Positions 20,648 to 55,285 of a stretch of 64,000 nucleotides of DNA are shown one piece after another (within the stretch, counting starts at the first letter, position 1; each line of letters starts with the position of its first letter). The DNA comes from Palleronia rufa. GTDB taxonomy: Bacteria; Pseudomonadota; Alphaproteobacteria; Rhodobacterales; Rhodobacteraceae. The stretch spans positions 18,291-82,290 of the forward strand of contig NZ_JQEY01000014.1 of assembly GCF_000743715.1 (NCBI RefSeq). Reading direction: 5' to 3'. The notes beneath the pieces were generated by a model. It saw only the letters and a program-made list of their open reading frames with translations. It was not told where the DNA came from and ran no database searches. The position numbers and the translations under genes are program-made.

Positions 20648-21421
20648 ATGAACAAGGATCCGATTCCCTATCAGGAGCTCCCGGCCGACACCGCCGCCGA
20701 GCTCGACCGGCTGGCCAGGCGGTTTCGCCAGGCCGATGGCGTGGGCATGCAGGTGCTGTCCCTGGTCGGCGGTCAGGCCGAGGATATCCTGGGTCGCCTG
20801 CCGCTCGCCGTTCGGGAAGGTCTGGACCGCGCGACGAAGAAGGCGCTGGAGGTCGCGTTCGACGCGGCTTTCGCCAGCCGCGGGCGGGTGCGCGACCGGC
20901 CCGATTGGCTGAATACCGCCACAACCACTGCGATGGGGGCCATCGGCGGATCGGGCGGCCTGCCCACCGCGCTGGCCGAACTGCCGGTGACCACAATGGT
21001 CCTGCTCCGCGCGATCCAGGGGATCGCCGCCGAAACCGGTTTCGACGTCCAGGATCCGGTGACGCGGGCACAATGCCTGCAGGTTTTCGCGGCCGCAGGG
21101 CCGCTGGCGCGGGACGACGGCACGGATCTGGCGTTCCTGTCGGCGCGGGTCACCCTGTCGGGTCCGGCGATCCACGGGATCATCGCAAAGGTCGCGCCGA
21201 GGCTCGCGACGGTGCTGGGCCAGAAACTGGCCGCTCAGGCGGTACCTGTCATCGGCGCGGCGGCAGGCGCCGCCACCAACTACGCGTTCACCAGTTACTA
21301 TCAGGAAATGGCGCGCGTCTATTTCGGTCTTCGGGCGCTGGCCCGGGACAGCGGCAGCGATGTCGAAACCCTGGTACGGGAGTTCCGCGTCCGCGTGTCG
21401 CCACCAAAAATGGTGGTCTGA
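20648..21421 (+). CDS. EcsC-family protein
   Basis: A 257-residue protein with the EcsC family pattern: an alpha-helical N-terminus, a Gly-rich G-A-I-G-G-S-G-G-L-P, the V-T-R-A-Q-C-L-Q-V-F-A-A segment, and V-I-G-A-A-A-G-A-A-T-N-Y-A-F-T-S-Y-Y near the end. EcsC-like proteins are found near ABC exporters in Firmicutes and alone in proteobacteria; the biochemical role is unknown. It is followed on the same strand by the palindrome array at 21544-21874, which could lie in its 3' untranslated region. Confidence 0.82.
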   Translation: MNKDPIPYQELPADTAAELDRLARRFRQADGVGMQVLSLVGGQAEDILGRLPLAVREGLDRATKKALEVAFDAAFASRGRVRDRPDWLNTATTTAMGAIGGSGGLPTALAELPVTTMVLLRAIQGIAAETGFDVQDPVTRAQCLQVFAAAGPLARDDGTDLAFLSARVTLSGPAIHGIIAKVAPRLATVLGQKLAAQAVPVIGAAAGAATNYAFTSYYQEMARVYFGLRALARDSGSDVETLVREFRVRVSPPKMVV

Positions 21422-21543
21422 GCCGGCGCGGACGTCGTGCGCCTGTCGCCAGGAGCCTGATCCGCAGATGCGGCTCGGCCGGCGGGGCAGATAGCGGCGG
21501 CGGCCCCCCGGTTCCGCGACGCATTCCGCCCCTGATGTGCGGG

Positions 21544-21874
21544 TGCCGGTGCCCACCGGCAGCGGTCACCCCACCCCACTCCACCCTTCCGGACCGGTTG
21601 CGCGGAACCCCATCGGCGGCTCCCCGCCGCGCGACCTCGCGCCCCTCTCCCATGCCGCGCCTCCGGCCTCCCCCAACCGGAGACGCGCCATTCCCCGACG
21701 CCGGTCGTGCGGCGCCCCCGCGCCGGTTCCCCAACCGGCGCCCCCCCTGTTCACTGCCGGCCCCTCAACCGGCAGCGCCCTTGTCCGCGGCCCCGACGCG
21801 GGACCGACCTCACCCCTGAGGTCCGGATCCCCTGTACCATTCCGGTCCCGGGCCCCCGTCACCCCTGGCGACGG
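21544..21874. repeat. Array of about a dozen consecutive non-identical short palindromes, mostly with C-rich loops
   Basis: Read on the plus strand as arm/loop: 21544-21561 tgccggt/gccc; 21614-21629 cggcgg/ctcc; 21629-21642 gcgcg/acct; 21661-21682 ctccgg/10 nt; 21699-21714 cgccg/gtcgtg; 21720-21741 gcgccggtt/cccc (9 bp, perfect); 21754-21775 ctgccgg/cccctcaa; 21783-21804 7 bp with one bulged G, loop gccccga; 21806-21823 gacctca/cccc; 21823-21845 ccgga/13 nt; 21856-21874 ccgtc/9 nt. A weaker one (ttccg) is at 21587-21607. Arms differ between units yet stay complementary. C3-C5 runs recur roughly every 15-25 bp. No ORF explains it. It lies between the convergent EcsC gene and the small ORF at 21886-22032. 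Not a CRISPR (no constant repeat) and not a single terminator (no T tract). The function is unknown. Confidence 0.6.
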
Positions 21875-21885
21875 CCCGATCACGG

Positions 21886-22032
21886 TCAAGCGGCCAGAGG
21901 CCGGATCGTCCGGAGTTCCCGCCGAAGCAGCGCCTGGACCTCGTCCCGGCTGAGCGGGTCCGCTTCCGGGGTCTCGCCGGGGCAGGGCCCGCGCCTGGCG
22001 AAACGCGTGGAGAGGAGTTTGACGATTTTCAT
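21886..22032 (-). CDS. Possible small basic protein, 48 residues
   Basis: An ATG at 22032 is preceded on the minus strand by AAGGA with about 8 nt spacing. It opens a 48-residue frame starting M-K-I-V-K-L-L-S-T-R-F-A-R-R and ending D-E-V-Q-A-L-L-R-R-E-L-R-T-I-R-P. It looks like an amphipathic helical peptide with many Arg residues. The upstream 200 bp are visibly more AT-rich than surrounding DNA, as for a promoter. I do not recognise a family. It ends 12 bp before the palindrome array, which would be its 3' region if transcribed through. Confidence 0.4.
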   Translation of the reverse strand: MKIVKLLSTRFARRGPCPGETPEADPLSRDEVQALLRRELRTIRPLAA

Positions 22033-22276
22033 CGGGCGGTCCTTCGGTTCTGCTGCGATGCCCCCCGGCACCGCGTCTGATCCCACTATGCCGGAAACAC
22101 CTTTCCAGACGCTCAAGAGGAAACGGAGCCTTGATCCTAATGCCGTTAACCCTGACAACCATCTGATCGGACAAAGGAAATAGAGTTCCGGCAATACGCT
22201 CGATTCGACAGGATCCAATTCGCGTCACATTGCACGCGTGCCGTTCACCGCGGGGAAACGACATCTCGCCCCGATC

Positions 22277-24571
22277 TTAACCCTCTGGTGGGAAAACGCC
22301 CGCCAGCGCCGGCGCTGCGGTGTCGGCGGCCAGCGCCTCTGCCAGCCATGATTCGACCGGGGCGCGGACGCTCTGCCGACCTTCCTGCCGGGCGCGGTCG
22401 ATGACCTGCCGGGCCGCGCCAAGGTCGATCCGGCGCAGCAGGTGCTTGACCGGTCCGATGGAGGCAGGGCGCATGGACAACGCACGAAGGCCGATGGCGG
22501 CCATGCACAGGGCCTCGACCGGACGTCCCGCATCCTCTCCGCAGAAGCTCACCGGTGTGCCGGTCTCTGCGCAACGGTCCACGATCATCGCCAGCAGGTT
22601 CAGGAAACTGACGTTGAGGGTATCGTAGCGCCGCCGCACGCGCTCATTCTCGCGGTCGGCCGCGAAGAAGAACTGTTTCAAATCGTTGCCGCCGATCGAG
22701 ACGAAATCGGCCTCTTCGAAGAAGGACCGCGGCGCGAATGCCATCGACGGCGTCTCGACCATGGCGCCGATGCGGACCTGGGACGGCAGATCGTGGCCCA
22801 GGCGCCGCTCCCGCTCAATCTCGTCGTCCACCATGGCCCGGGCATCGCGGAACTCGTCGAGCTGGGCGATGAACGGGAACATGACCGCCAGGGGACGGTT
22901 CTGCGTCGCGCGGATCAGCGCCTGGAGCTGCATGCGCATCACCCCGCGCTTGTCGAGCCCGACGCGGATCGCGCGCCAACCGAGCGCGGGGTTCGGCTCT
23001 TCGGGGCGCTTCATGTAGGGCAGCACCTTGTCCGATCCGATGTCGAGCGTGCGGAACACCACCGGCTTGCCGTGCGCCGCGTCCATGACGCGGGCATAGA
23101 GCCGCGCAAGGTCGCCGCGGCGCGGCACGGACCGGTTGGCCAGGAATTGCAGTTCGGTGCGGAAAAGGCCCACACCCTCCGCACCGGAGCCGTCGAGCGA
23201 CGGCAGGTCCGCCATCAGTCCTGCGTTCATGGTCAACTGGATCGTCGTGCCGCAGAGCGTGCTGGCGGGCTTGTCGCGCAGGTCGGCGTAGCGCTCCTGG
23301 GCCTTGGCCTGCATCGCGATCTTGTCCCGAAAGGCAGCGACGATGTTGTCCTCTGGGCGAAGATGAACGTTGCCCTGCTCCCCGTCGACCATCACATGAT
23401 CGCCGTTGAGTGCCTCTGCGGTGATGTTTTCGGCATGGATCACCAGCGGGATCGCCAGGGCACGCGCGACGACGGCGGCGTGGCTGCCGACGGCCCCTTG
23501 CTCCAGCACGATGCCCTTCAGGGACCGGCCGTAGTCCAAAAGCTCACCGGGTCCGATGTTGCGCGCCACCAGGATCGGGTCCGGTGGCATATCCGCCCCG
23601 GTTTCCCGCCCCTGTCCGGTCAGGATCCGCAGCAGCCGCCGCGACAGGTCGTCCAAATCGTGCATCCGTTCCCTGAAATACGCGTCGGGCGCGGATTGCA
23701 GGCGCGTGCGGGCGGTGGACTGCTCCTTTTCCACGGCGGCTTCCGCGGAAAGCCCGCGGTCGATATCCTCGCGCATGCGTTTCAGCCAGCCGCGGGAGTG
23801 GGCGAACATGCGATAGGTCTCAAGGACCTCGCGCTGGTCCTTGTCGGTGATCCGGGCCACGTCGAGCATGTCGTCGACACTGACCCGGAGGGTCGCGATC
23901 GCCTCCGTCAGGCGTACCTTTTCGGCTTCGGTATCCTCGGCCACCGGATTGGTGACGACCACGCGCGGCTCATGCAGCCAGACACGGCCCTCGGCCGTTC
24001 CTTCCTGCGCGACGGTGCCGCGAAACAGAACCGGGTGCTGGTGGCGGGCGGAAAGTGCAGCGCCTTCCCCGACGAAAGCGCCGAGCTCGGTCATCTCGGC
24101 CAGGACCATGGCAACGACCTCCAGGGCGTAGACCTCGTCGTCGGTGAAGCCGCGCGCCTCGCGGGACTGAACGACCAGGACCCCCAGCCGTTCCCCCAGA
24201 CGCTGGATCGGAACGCCCAGAAAGCTGGAATACTTCTCTTCGCCCGTCTCGGGCATGTAGCGAAAACCGCGGGTCGCCGGTGCGTTGGCCGCGTTGATGT
24301 TCCGCCCCAGACGCGCCACGCGGCCGACCAGGCCCTCACCCAGGCGCATCCGCGTCTGATGGACGGCGGCGGGATTCAGGCCCTCTGTGGCGCAGAGTTC
24401 CAGCGTCTCCGCATCGCGGAAAAGGTAGATCGAGCATACCTCGGTCTGCATGGAGTCGGCGATGATCGAGGTGATGTGATCGAGCCTCTCCTGCCCCTCG
24501 CTCTTGTCGGCGAGCGCGTCGCGCAGGCGCTGCAGAAGCTTGCGGCTTTCGCTGTCGGTGCGCTGCGGCAT
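22277..24571 (-). CDS. ptsP: Phosphoenolpyruvate-protein phosphotransferase PtsP (EI-Ntr)
   Basis: First enzyme of the nitrogen-related PTS; it takes phosphate from PEP and passes it to NPr. The 764-residue protein has an N-terminal GAF domain (about 15-165), a PEP-utilising N-terminal region, the active-site His in G-A-V-G-S-H-A-A-V-V-A-R, and a C-terminal PEP-binding barrel with G-L-F-R-T-E-L-Q-F-L, V-F-R-T-L-D-I-G-S-D-K and S-F-C-G-E-D-A-G. ATG 24571 was chosen because the helix preceding the GAF domain starts there; the frame is open further upstream. It lies 156 bp downstream of lysC, an arrangement common in alphaproteobacteria. GAF sensing of glutamine is known for some homologues. Confidence 0.95.
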   Translation of the reverse strand: MPQRTDSESRKLLQRLRDALADKSEGQERLDHITSIIADSMQTEVCSIYLFRDAETLELCATEGLNPAAVHQTRMRLGEGLVGRVARLGRNINAANAPATRGFRYMPETGEEKYSSFLGVPIQRLGERLGVLVVQSREARGFTDDEVYALEVVAMVLAEMTELGAFVGEGAALSARHQHPVLFRGTVAQEGTAEGRVWLHEPRVVVTNPVAEDTEAEKVRLTEAIATLRVSVDDMLDVARITDKDQREVLETYRMFAHSRGWLKRMREDIDRGLSAEAAVEKEQSTARTRLQSAPDAYFRERMHDLDDLSRRLLRILTGQGRETGADMPPDPILVARNIGPGELLDYGRSLKGIVLEQGAVGSHAAVVARALAIPLVIHAENITAEALNGDHVMVDGEQGNVHLRPEDNIVAAFRDKIAMQAKAQERYADLRDKPASTLCGTTIQLTMNAGLMADLPSLDGSGAEGVGLFRTELQFLANRSVPRRGDLARLYARVMDAAHGKPVVFRTLDIGSDKVLPYMKRPEEPNPALGWRAIRVGLDKRGVMRMQLQALIRATQNRPLAVMFPFIAQLDEFRDARAMVDDEIERERRLGHDLPSQVRIGAMVETPSMAFAPRSFFEEADFVSIGGNDLKQFFFAADRENERVRRRYDTLNVSFLNLLAMIVDRCAETGTPVSFCGEDAGRPVEALCMAAIGLRALSMRPASIGPVKHLLRRIDLGAARQVIDRARQEGRQSVRAPVESWLAEALAADTAAPALAGVFPPEG

Positions 24572-28802: not shown

Positions 28803-29155
28803 GCAAGGCGCGGAGATCGGTCCGGCGATCCGGTTTCGGCAGCGAACCCGCGCGGCGCCGGAGCCGCCCCTGCGGCACCACGTCCGCAGGCGATGCCGGC
28901 TGACCCGGCCTGATCTGGGCGCCGGCTCATCAAGGGCGGCGCGGATTTTCGCCCTAGGTGCCGCGGTTTACGATTCGGAAACATCTGGGTTGCTAGATGA
29001 GGCCACGACAGGAACGCACCTGTCTCGGGCCGCCGGTCCGGGGTCCTCGAATGGGATCTCTACGCCTCCCACGGCTCACCGCACAAAGCGTCAGCCCCGG
29101 TCACGGGGGCACGACGCGGGGTGAGCGCCTCACTCCTGATCCCAGAGGAGATCCG
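28803..29155. other. Intergenic region upstream of the GH9 gene
   Basis: About 350 bp without a recognisable gene. It contains an inverted repeat gtgag-cgc-ctcac at 29121-29133, 22 bp before the GH9 start codon, and a good AGAGGAG ribosome-binding site at 29144-29150. The repeat may be an operator, but its 5-bp arms are short. Confidence 0.4.
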
Positions 29156-30868
29156 ATGTTGAAATCGAAGACTGCGAACTGCACCCCCGCCGATCCCGTG
29201 CCGGAACTGGCGTACGCCGTCACCGCCACCTGGAACGGCGGGTACAACGGATCGCTCAAGATCACCAATTCCACATCCACAACGATGAAGCCCTGGTCCA
29301 TCATCGTCGAGGCGGAGGGGCTCGATATCCGGAACAGCTGGGGGATGACCGCGACCGATCTGGGCGACGGCACCATCCTGCTTGAGGGATCGGGCTACGG
29401 CGAGAAACTCTCGCCGGGGCGAAGCGTCACGGTGGGCTTTACCGGCAAGGGGCAGCCGCCCGCCGATCTGGTCATCGTGTCCGAAACCGCGCCGGAGACC
29501 GGCTGGGCCGAAAGTCCCTTCGACGGCGGGGATTACGAAACCGCGCTCGACCTCTCGATGGACTTCTACTACGCCCAGTACTCCGGCGATCTGCCGGACG
29601 ACCACCCGATCGCCTGGCGCGGCGACAGCGCGCTCGACGACGGCGCCGATGTCGGTCGGGACCTGTCCGGCGGCTTCTACGATGCGGGCGACCACGTGAA
29701 GTTCGGCCTGCCGCAGGCCTATACCGCGACGGTGCTGGCCTGGGGCGCGCTCGACTACAAGAAGGGCTATGTCGCGGCCGGAAGCTACAACGACGTGGCT
29801 GCGCACGTGGAATGGGTCTCCGACTACCTGCTGCGCGCCTATGACGACAAGGGCACGGCGGACCTGTCGGACGACGTGTTTTACGGGCAGGTCGGCAACG
29901 GAAGGATCGACCATGCCTGGTGGGGCCCGGCGGAGCAGATGACCATGGAGCGGCCGGCCTATGCGATCACCGCCGAAAATCCCGGAACGGAAGTGACCGC
30001 CCAGACCGCCGCCGGGCTGGCGTCCAGCGCCATGGTCCTGCTGGAGAAGGGCGATGCCGCCGGTGCCGCGACCATGATCGACGCCGCCGAGTCGCTCTTC
30101 GCCTTTTCGGAGGCGTATCGCGGCACCTATACGGATGCGATCCCCGACGCAGAGGCGTTCTACGGATCCCATAGCGGCTATATGGATGAGCTTGCATGGG
30201 CGGCGACATGGCTCTTCGAGGCGACCGGCAAGGCGAGCTATCTCCAGAAGGCCAAGGAATACTACACGCCCAGCGGCCAGTACTGGGCGATGAGCTGGGA
30301 CGACCAGTCGATGGGAACGGCGGTGCGGCTGGCCGAATTCACGGGCGAGCAGCGCTACTTCGACGATCTCGATATACATTTCAGCCAATGGATCTACGCT
30401 GTCGACCGAACGCCGGGGACGGATACCAACGGCGGACTGGGGTGGATCGACGAGTGGGGCTCTAACCGCTATGCCGCGAACACGGCGTTCCTGGCGCTGC
30501 AATACGGCGACGTCCTGAAGGCGCGCGGTGAGGGGGACCGGGCGGCGGATCTGAACGATTTCGCGCGCGACCAGATCGACTACATGCTGGGGGACAATCC
30601 CGATAGCTTCAGCTACGTGGTCGGCTTCGGGGAGTCGTCCCCGGCCAGCCCGCATCATCGGGGAGCCTCCGGCACGCTGCATGTGGGCACCACCGGCCCC
30701 AACCTCAACCGTCTGGACGGTGCGCTGGTCGGGGGGCCGGGACGGGACGGGTCCTACCGAGACGATCGGACCGATTATGCGGGCAACGAGGTGGCGATCG
30801 ACTACAACGCCGGTTTCTCCGGCGCGCTGGCGGGGATCCTTTCGGAGGATCAGTTCCTGTTCACCTGA
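29156..30868 (+). CDS. Glycoside hydrolase family 9 (endoglucanase-type) with N-terminal CBM2-like module
   Basis: A 570-residue predicted beta-1,4-glucanase. Residues about 15-105 form a CBM2-like cellulose-binding module (A-T-W-N-G-G-Y-N-G-S-L-K-I-T-N, W-S-I-I-V-E, then G-Y-G-E-K-L-S-P-G). The GH9 catalytic domain spans about 130-565: the D-A-G-D motif at 176-179 (catalytic base), H-H-R-G at 500-503, and the catalytic acid Glu545 in G-N-E-V-A-I-D-Y-N-A. All catalytic positions are present. There is no recognisable N-terminal signal peptide: the product starts M-L-K-S-K-T-A-N-C-T-P. Export may use another route, or the protein acts in the cytosol. Such enzymes are not typical of this bacterial group. 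It stands alone between a monooxygenase and a convergent TRAP operon. Confidence 0.9.
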   Translation: MLKSKTANCTPADPVPELAYAVTATWNGGYNGSLKITNSTSTTMKPWSIIVEAEGLDIRNSWGMTATDLGDGTILLEGSGYGEKLSPGRSVTVGFTGKGQPPADLVIVSETAPETGWAESPFDGGDYETALDLSMDFYYAQYSGDLPDDHPIAWRGDSALDDGADVGRDLSGGFYDAGDHVKFGLPQAYTATVLAWGALDYKKGYVAAGSYNDVAAHVEWVSDYLLRAYDDKGTADLSDDVFYGQVGNGRIDHAWWGPAEQMTMERPAYAITAENPGTEVTAQTAAGLASSAMVLLEKGDAAGAATMIDAAESLFAFSEAYRGTYTDAIPDAEAFYGSHSGYMDELAWAATWLFEATGKASYLQKAKEYYTPSGQYWAMSWDDQSMGTAVRLAEFTGEQRYFDDLDIHFSQWIYAVDRTPGTDTNGGLGWIDEWGSNRYAANTAFLALQYGDVLKARGEGDRAADLNDFARDQIDYMLGDNPDSFSYVVGFGESSPASPHHRGASGTLHVGTTGPNLNRLDGALVGGPGRDGSYRDDRTDYAGNEVAIDYNAGFSGALAGILSEDQFLFT

Positions 30869-54946: not shown

Positions 54947-55285
54947 ATTTCACAACTTATGGCGGAAGTCCGCTCCGCTTTCTATCGGCATAGGCGGGAA
55001 AAGGCCGATTTTGTACGGGTTTTCAAATTCGTTTTGCGCGGTGCGTGACGTTGAGGCAGTTTGAGCCGGTAGGTCCGAGTTGTCCGGTCCTGCGCAACAC
55101 CGTTACCCTTCCCCTATGGCCCGGTTCTCCCCAACCGGGCCAATTTTCCGTCTGGCGGCGGAAAAAGCACGCCCCGCCGACGCGCGATGCCGCGGGGCGG
55201 GTCCGTCCGCGCATTTCTCGGGACAAACCATTGTGCAGCCCATCGAAAAGGTGGCATCAGGTTCGCAGATGCCGCGGAGGGTGCA
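54947..55285. other. Intergenic region in the pcc cluster
   Basis: About 340 bp without a clear gene. The first half (54950-55040) is notably AT-richer than surrounding DNA and could contain a promoter for the downstream genes. The hairpin at 55118-55141 lies within, and a GGAGG site at 55276-55280 serves the next small gene. Confidence 0.45.
55118..55141 (+). terminator. Perfect 9-bp hairpin with C-rich loop, terminator-like
   Basis: Arm ggcccggtt, loop ctcccc, followed by aattttcc. It would end transcripts from pccB and the two small genes, or attenuate reading into pccA. Its core (ccggtt, C-rich loop, aaccgg) is almost the same as the unit at 21720-21741 in the palindrome array. Confidence 0.6.

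Follow-up and report, generated by a model that had tools for sequence, protein, structure and literature searches.

A dense, single-species array of short hairpins between convergent ecsC and ptsP genes of Palleronia rufa: a possible transcription-end zone

The ecsC-ptsP junction

The window, i.e. the whole stretch of 64,000 nucleotides of Palleronia rufa DNA analysed here, contains an array of short hairpins between an ecsC-family gene on the plus strand and a convergent ptsP-like gene on the minus strand (Table 1). Transcription of ecsC would head into this array and transcription of ptsP would likewise head towards it, with a small minus-strand ORF lying in between.

Table 1. Features of the ecsC-ptsP junction, in positions of the window
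Feature	Position	Strand	Remarks
ecsC-family gene, 257 aa	20648..21421	+	Pfam EcsC, E 1.1e-21
Spacer from ecsC stop to first strong hairpin, 122 nt	21422..21543		contains a weaker 5-bp hairpin at 21425-21443
Array of hairpins	21544..21874	no strand	9 perfect hairpins, arms 5-9 bp, alternating with 16 C runs of at least 4
Hairpin 1	21544..21561		tgccggt GCCC accggca
Hairpin 2	21614..21629		cggcgg CTCC ccgccg
Hairpin 3	21661..21682		ctccgg CCTCCCCCAA ccggag; imperfect extension 21652-21691
Hairpin 4	21699..21714		cgccg GTCGTG cggcg
Hairpin 5	21720..21741		gcgccggtt CCCC aaccggcgc
Hairpin 6	21754..21775		ctgccgg CCCCTCAA ccggcag
Hairpin 7	21785..21801		ccgcg GCCCCGA cgcgg
Hairpin 8	21806..21823		gacctca CCCC tgaggtc
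Hairpin 9	21856..21874		ccgtc ACCCCTGGC gacgg; 11 nt beyond the small-ORF stop on the minus strand
Small ORF, 48 aa	21886..22032	-	3' side leads into the array; weakly coding-like
ptsP-like gene	22277..24571	-	Pfam GAF and PEP-utilising enzyme domains; gene call

The array was originally described as about twelve inverted repeats. Its density is confirmed; a recount by script yields nine non-overlapping perfect hairpins (arms of at least 5 bp, loops of 3-10), or ten if the limits are relaxed to loops of at most 12 and arms of at least 4 bp, and in addition there is a cgcgACCTcgcg unit overlapping hairpin 2 at its end. The four C-rich loops of four bases (GCCC, CTCC, CCCC, CCCC) are all present, and C makes up 36 of the 56 loop bases. 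The plus strand of the 331 bases comprises 168 C and 88 G, with unpaired and paired bases counted together. At least one third of the array bases are located in perfect stems, and 200 of the 331 are paired in the predicted fold of the plus strand. The five consecutive hairpins between 21699 and 21823 are separated by gaps of 5, 12, 9 and 4 nt, the remaining gaps being 25, 6, 31, 16 and 32 nt. Tandem repeats of note were not detected in the array; there is a short CACCC run only.

As had been supposed from the beginning, the array does not encode protein: all six frames score negative, though long open frames cross it. Also confirmed was the lack of T tracts, with no T-tract terminator found on either strand between 21300 and 22400. 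A sigma-70-type promoter match for the array was not obtained, and Rfam covariance models gave no match in the window at gathering score and none at E ≤ 5 in 21400-22300.

The small ORF has a dicodon score of 9 (cut-off 8), or 6.5 by a second table, and a Pfam search returned no match at E ≤ 0.01. As a conserved gene it was rejected: same-genus genomes contain no match, and the weak matches in 50 of 294 other genomes of the family (best E 0.004) include several with internal stops. In the ecsC-ptsP spacer of P. caenipelagi, a small ORF with the same orientation as in the window shows weak similarity to it (8 of 21 residues, E 0.002 in a single comparison). The two could possibly represent a fast-evolving small protein; a clear third copy of this look-alike was not found.

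Hairpins 3, 5 and 6 have the core CCGG-N-CCC-N-AACCGG in common. We considered it as the mark of a family, but the genome contains 14 matches (seven per strand) versus 2 and 7 for a reversed control, and therefore no clear family can be recognised. Elsewhere in the window, at 55117-55142, the hairpin tggcccggtt CTCCCC aaccgggcca, followed by ATTTTCC, looks like a terminator and shows the core of hairpins 3 and 5.

Pairing and composition in the genomic context

Pairing in the array lies far above chance. In the dinucleotide-preserving shuffle test proposed with the original prediction, none of 1000 shuffles reaches the hairpin number of the array at arm 5, 6 or 7, and hairpins with arms of at least 6 bp number 6 as opposed to 1.2 ± 1.0 in shuffles. 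RNA folding of 21540-21880 gives z -6.62 on the plus and -5.90 on the minus strand, and on neither of them does any of 100 shuffles come as low; folding of the array as single-stranded DNA gives z -6.9.

Comparison with other intergenic DNA had also been proposed, and here the outcome depends on the measure. We used a host sample of 40 × 20 kb plus the window, i.e. 864 kb or 22% of 3.85 Mb. With 12 shuffles per window, excess folding energy is -8.2 kcal/100 nt for the array taken at its exact coordinates, which surpasses the best of 248 intergenic grid windows (-8.1) and the best of 60 coding windows (-4.3); third place among the 248 goes to the grid window overlapping the array (21555), at -7.5 kcal/100 nt. 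By z, however, the array (-6.0, again with 12 shuffles per window) is beaten by three intergenic windows (-6.8, -6.7 and -6.4), and its hairpin content of 42 bp per 331 nt occupies rank 4 in the 864 kb scanned. Since the best 331-nt window of the whole sample, if shuffled, holds 38-52 hairpin bp (20 shuffles), the raw 42 bp are not exceptional. The hairpin count is exceptional only relative to the array's own G-poor composition.

The recurrence of C runs noticed at the outset was borne out. There are 16 runs of at least four C, moderately above what composition predicts (11.6 ± 1.7; 12 of 1000 shuffles reach 16), with a mean spacing of 19.5 nt and a spacing CV of 0.39 versus 0.73 ± 0.18 in shuffles. 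They are thus more regularly placed than in 987 of 999 shuffles, with the other 12 being as regular. The runner-up in about 2.07 Mb (864 kb of own sample, 800 kb of relatives' samples and 402 kb of ecsC loci) has 11 such runs. The C>G skew of the array is the second strongest in the host sample. Its best 78 nt contain 45 C and 17 G; a C-rich, G-poor stretch of this kind is not unique, given that five of 193 spacers rank above this one by C/(G+1), where it comes 6th.

In the host sample, with genes called by a home-made dicodon caller that makes some wrong calls, hairpin density amounts to 40 bp/kb in convergent spacers (shuffles 26), 30 and 32 in tandem spacers (shuffles 20 and 23) and 21 in divergent ones (shuffles 17); coding DNA, at 19.6 against 20.1 in shuffles, has no excess. 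In 200-kb samples of four relatives, evaluated without shuffle control, convergent spacers are in no case the richest class, and in three samples they are the poorest, with an AT-rich stretch of 5.8 kb distorting one of the three; the order of spacer classes in the host is therefore not general. Hairpins in the 3'-facing spacers of the host sample comprise 14 with and 414 without a T tract (per strand). Two candidate genome-wide traits were dismissed: C-rich loops are not typical of terminators in general, as the loops of the 14 T-tract hairpins have 30% C and 25% G, and sense C>G skew after stop codons has a mean of -0.006 in 186 ends. A further spacer rich in hairpins of differing sequence lies in the window 3' of a plus-strand gene (28803-29197; the first 331 nt hold 48 bp in arms of at least 5, with z 4.0).

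Eight intergenic tandem repeats (period at least 20, at least two copies) occur in the host sample. Five are located in convergent spacers according to the caller, as is a sixth by inspection of open frames, and these six are all those with a period of at least 60. Among them, L075 14414-14769, L062 3009-3333 and L054 11575-11875 are built of 61-71 bp units in 4.5-5.3 copies with perfect hairpins of 8-11 bp; the spacer of L075 had been labelled '--' by the caller, although an open frame read as purU ends at the array there. Arrays with a period of at least 60 were not found 3' of the orthologous genes in relatives (purU 0 of 11, the L062 gene 0 of 11, the L054 gene 0 of 3). Judging from these comparisons, this lineage seems to acquire hairpins in spacers at the ends of genes.

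Distribution in related genomes

All 13 other genomes of the genus that were searched possess an ecsC orthologue. In 11 of them ptsP is next downstream, with 7-261 nt between the alignable protein parts; in the other two ecsC is followed by a 1.2 kb insert with another gene (L006) or by other genes (L003). None of the 13 carries the array at its ecsC junction; in the latter two, the best 331 nt have 12 hairpin bp in L105 (L006 contig) and 14 in L104 (L003 contig). Searching the 13 whole genomes with the DNA of the array gave matches of 23-46 nt only, in five genomes, and among 294 other genomes of the family (drawn from a larger group) there were only matches of 22-77 nt, in 18 genomes. At 15 of the 19 family match loci inspected the central 331 nt hold at most 13 hairpin bp, and at the other four 24-30. 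The host genome has no second copy; its next best match (37.4 bits, 37 nt, E 0.018) lies outside the array. With short matches only in relatives and no second copy in the host, a mobile or repeated element was rejected.

As far as the genomes searched show, the array is confined to one species. The original suggestion that pairing, and not sequence, may be under selection is supported only in part: pairing lies far above chance, but one half of the outcome named as refuting it, a lack of palindromes at the same position in relatives, is what was found (0 of 13), and the genomes searched yielded no orthologous sequence in which compensatory changes could show. The proposal of a structured RNA or 3' UTR holds up in a reduced version, namely a cluster of hairpins located between the 3' ends of convergent genes. 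An old conserved RNA is not supported.

Differing hairpin clusters are present at the same end of ptsP in two other genomes. In Frigidibacter albus (L123 6359-6626) five hairpins of differing sequence make up 45 bp (0 of 1000 shuffles), one of them followed by TTTTT, and the cluster is flanked by ptsP and an ORF other than ecsC. The ecsC-ptsP spacer of strain CCMM004 (L109) has three hairpins with 26 bp (0 of 1000 shuffles), two of which have common arms. For comparison, 1 of 1000 shuffles reaches the hairpin content of the 464-nt spacer of the window. By blastn the three spacers have only matches of 10-17 nt with each other (best E 0.18). Together they are three of 17 ptsP-side spacers tested; a comparable cluster is missing in the other 14, the nearest being L133 with 22 of 1000 shuffles. 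The 17 were chosen, at a length of at least 100 nt, from the 30 of 39 loci that hold ptsP, leaving aside gaps below 100 nt and L105, L121, L122 and L131, whose gaps of 679-1206 nt enclose a gene in at least some cases. Most of the 17 are delimited towards ptsP by the end of the protein alignment and not by the stop codon, and apart from L123 the neighbour is ecsC in most.

Likeness to known systems and possible origin of the array

The array is real, locally extreme and found in a single species, and its setting is ordinary. A published description of an array with this combination of features did not emerge from a limited literature search. The statement that it has no known counterpart was nevertheless too strong, considering the ptsP 3' clusters in two other Rhodobacteraceae and the hairpin clusters without U tracts that have been proposed as intrinsic terminators (Gupta and Pal 2021, PMC8355165). 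According to that paper, such clusters have stems of 2-10 bp, neighbours less than 15 bases apart and three hairpins on average, become rarer with size and, where genomes are GC-rich, gain in frequency over single hairpins; 98% of the sites identified correctly lie within 80 nt of the stop codon, and G or C runs seldom follow closely on the hairpins. The array resembles the clusters as described there in that several short hairpins follow one another in a spacer past a stop codon, and its arms of 5-9 bp fit the stem length; the spacing agrees in part. Compared with the same description it differs in having 9-10 hairpins over 331 nt, several gaps above 15 nt and regular C runs. Its distance to the stop codon is 11 nt for the small ORF on the minus strand and 122 nt for ecsC, just past which the weaker 5-bp hairpin is found.

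A canonical intrinsic terminator, i.e. a GC-rich stem and then a T tract, is not found in the array. Rho-dependent terminators have C-rich, G-poor rut regions, and their loading sites are usually little paired. The ecsC strand of the array corresponds to such regions with its large surplus of C over G, its regularly spaced C and a C-rich, G-poor stretch of about 80 nt, but it is not poor in structure, with much of it in stems (z -6.6 on the plus strand). REP and BIME elements are palindromes in spacers, often at the 3' ends of genes. The array palindromes share this position in a gene 3'-end spacer, but they exist in one copy in their genome and belong to no repeated family. RNAs of the CcsR type have a DUF1127 gene upstream and hairpins with CCUCCUCCC loops. 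CcsR1-4 in the 3' UTR of ccaF1 of Rhodobacter sphaeroides (PMC8625941) likewise form, in a bacterium related to the host, a row of RNAs that follows a small ORF. In the window, by contrast, the small ORF has no DUF1127 match (no Pfam match), the motif CCTCCTCCC is absent from the array, and the strand with the C-rich loops is not the one that carries the small ORF. Finally, the tandem arrays of the host (L075, L062, L054) also have dense hairpins in convergent spacers and were not found at the corresponding junction in relatives, but they consist of near-identical copies of 61-71 bp, a unit that has no equivalent in the array.

With its likeness to hairpin-cluster terminators and to a Rho loading region, the array is taken, tentatively and with somewhat less than even confidence, as a young, lineage-specific transcription-end zone between ecsC on the one side and ptsP with the small ORF on the other. 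It would terminate transcription in both directions, and Rho would take part. RNA polymerase arriving from either side would transcribe a row of short, fast-folding hairpins. From the small-ORF and ptsP side, the first hairpin would appear shortly past the stop in an RNA that is G-rich and predicted to fold more stably. Transcripts entering from ecsC would be C-rich and G-poor between hairpins, with C runs about 20 nt apart, and might thus suit Rho loading. The hairpins could also block 3' exonucleases and so give stable ends. If only folding matters, arm sequences would be free to differ and would turn over quickly. Pairing beyond composition and the convergent position argue for the end zone, as do the hairpin density of convergent spacers in the host sample, the clusters at the ptsP end of two other genomes, the published precedent of clusters without U tracts and the strong C>G skew. 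Against it stand the missing T tract and the late start on the ecsC side, where the first strong hairpin lies 122 nt past the stop, beyond the 80 nt of the published sites. Unlike in the published set, G or C runs are close behind the hairpins here. The array is missing from relatives whose ecsC and ptsP are 7-113 nt apart, 14 of the 17 ptsP-side spacers have no such cluster, convergent spacers are poorest in hairpins in three of four relatives, and a sense C>G skew is not a general feature of gene ends in the host. The strong pairing of the plus strand speaks specifically against Rho loading.

The most serious competitor, which we regard as a real if rather doubtful possibility, is a selectively neutral origin by mutation: a GC-rich spacer free of constraint would have had inverted repeats made and mended, and C runs lengthened, through slippage and through template switching over short distances, and the result would have no function. 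Template switching can generate perfect stems in a single event, according to PMC8794818, and the plus-strand stems are nearly all Watson-Crick, with one G-T in 90 pairs (span ≤ 40). Absence of the array from all 13 same-genus genomes, with spacers of 7-261 nt in 11 of them, agrees with such an origin, as does the lack of special hairpin richness in convergent spacers of relatives. The three other very hairpin-rich spacers of the host turned out to be locus-specific tandem hairpin arrays not found in relatives, and hence spacers here expand. Duplication within the array itself yields a weak and mixed signal: two adjoining 34-nt stretches are 71% alike, and in 300 simulations the top-five self-match was reached 12 times, the single best 40 times and the mean 222 times. 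On the other hand, coding DNA of the host has no hairpin excess and divergent spacers have the smallest one, so that the excess follows gene 3' ends and not a mere lack of constraint. Neither regular C-run spacing nor strong strand asymmetry is an obvious product of these processes, and the ptsP 3' cluster of Frigidibacter albus contains a T-tract terminator.

It is improbable that the minus strand is the working RNA, namely a structured 3' UTR or processed RNA of the small ORF in which GGGG-type loops could form G-quadruplexes. The first hairpin directly behind the small-ORF stop, the 16 G4 runs on this strand and an upstream region that is AT-richer by eye and could hold a promoter are all compatible with it. 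Its fold also has 15 G-U pairs as compared with the one on the plus strand (span ≤ 40), but a G-rich strand is expected to give more of them. Moreover, the coding signal of the small ORF is weak and its relatives are not clear, there is no promoter match, and the folding z is no better than on the plus strand. We consider it equally unlikely that the array is a recent RNA scaffold, in which single-stranded C4 tracts about 20 nt apart between hairpins of variable sequence would serve, at a convergent junction, as a landing strip for Rho or some other protein that binds C, with structure and spacing selected instead of sequence. Least credible is a plus-strand sponge whose C-rich loops would capture an RNA-binding protein or Shine-Dalgarno sequences, which are G-rich: loop composition and regular C runs would fit, but the decoy of anti-Shine-Dalgarno type put forward originally is disfavoured because the array has no more than two copies of the core CCTCC (L001 2513 and 2520) and none of CCTCCTCCC. 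Rfam match, promoter match and counterparts in the relatives searched were all missing, too.

If the array ends transcription, as in the end-zone reading that we prefer, it would be a new and large version of a known kind of terminator, and otherwise a mutational curiosity. It offers an extreme and isolated locus for a direct test of the hairpin-cluster or Rho mechanism, and its absence from 13 of 13 same-genus genomes illustrates how fast palindromes can arise in the space between two convergent genes.

Two other stretches of the host sample stand out by their C/G skew. The strongest skew belongs to a convergent spacer (L077 15560-16130) that is G-rich on the plus strand and has tandem repeats of 114 bp along with several differing hairpins. 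The third strongest is found at L071 13080-13480, where a long degenerate repeat of the CCGCCGCCGTT type lies in a called gene.
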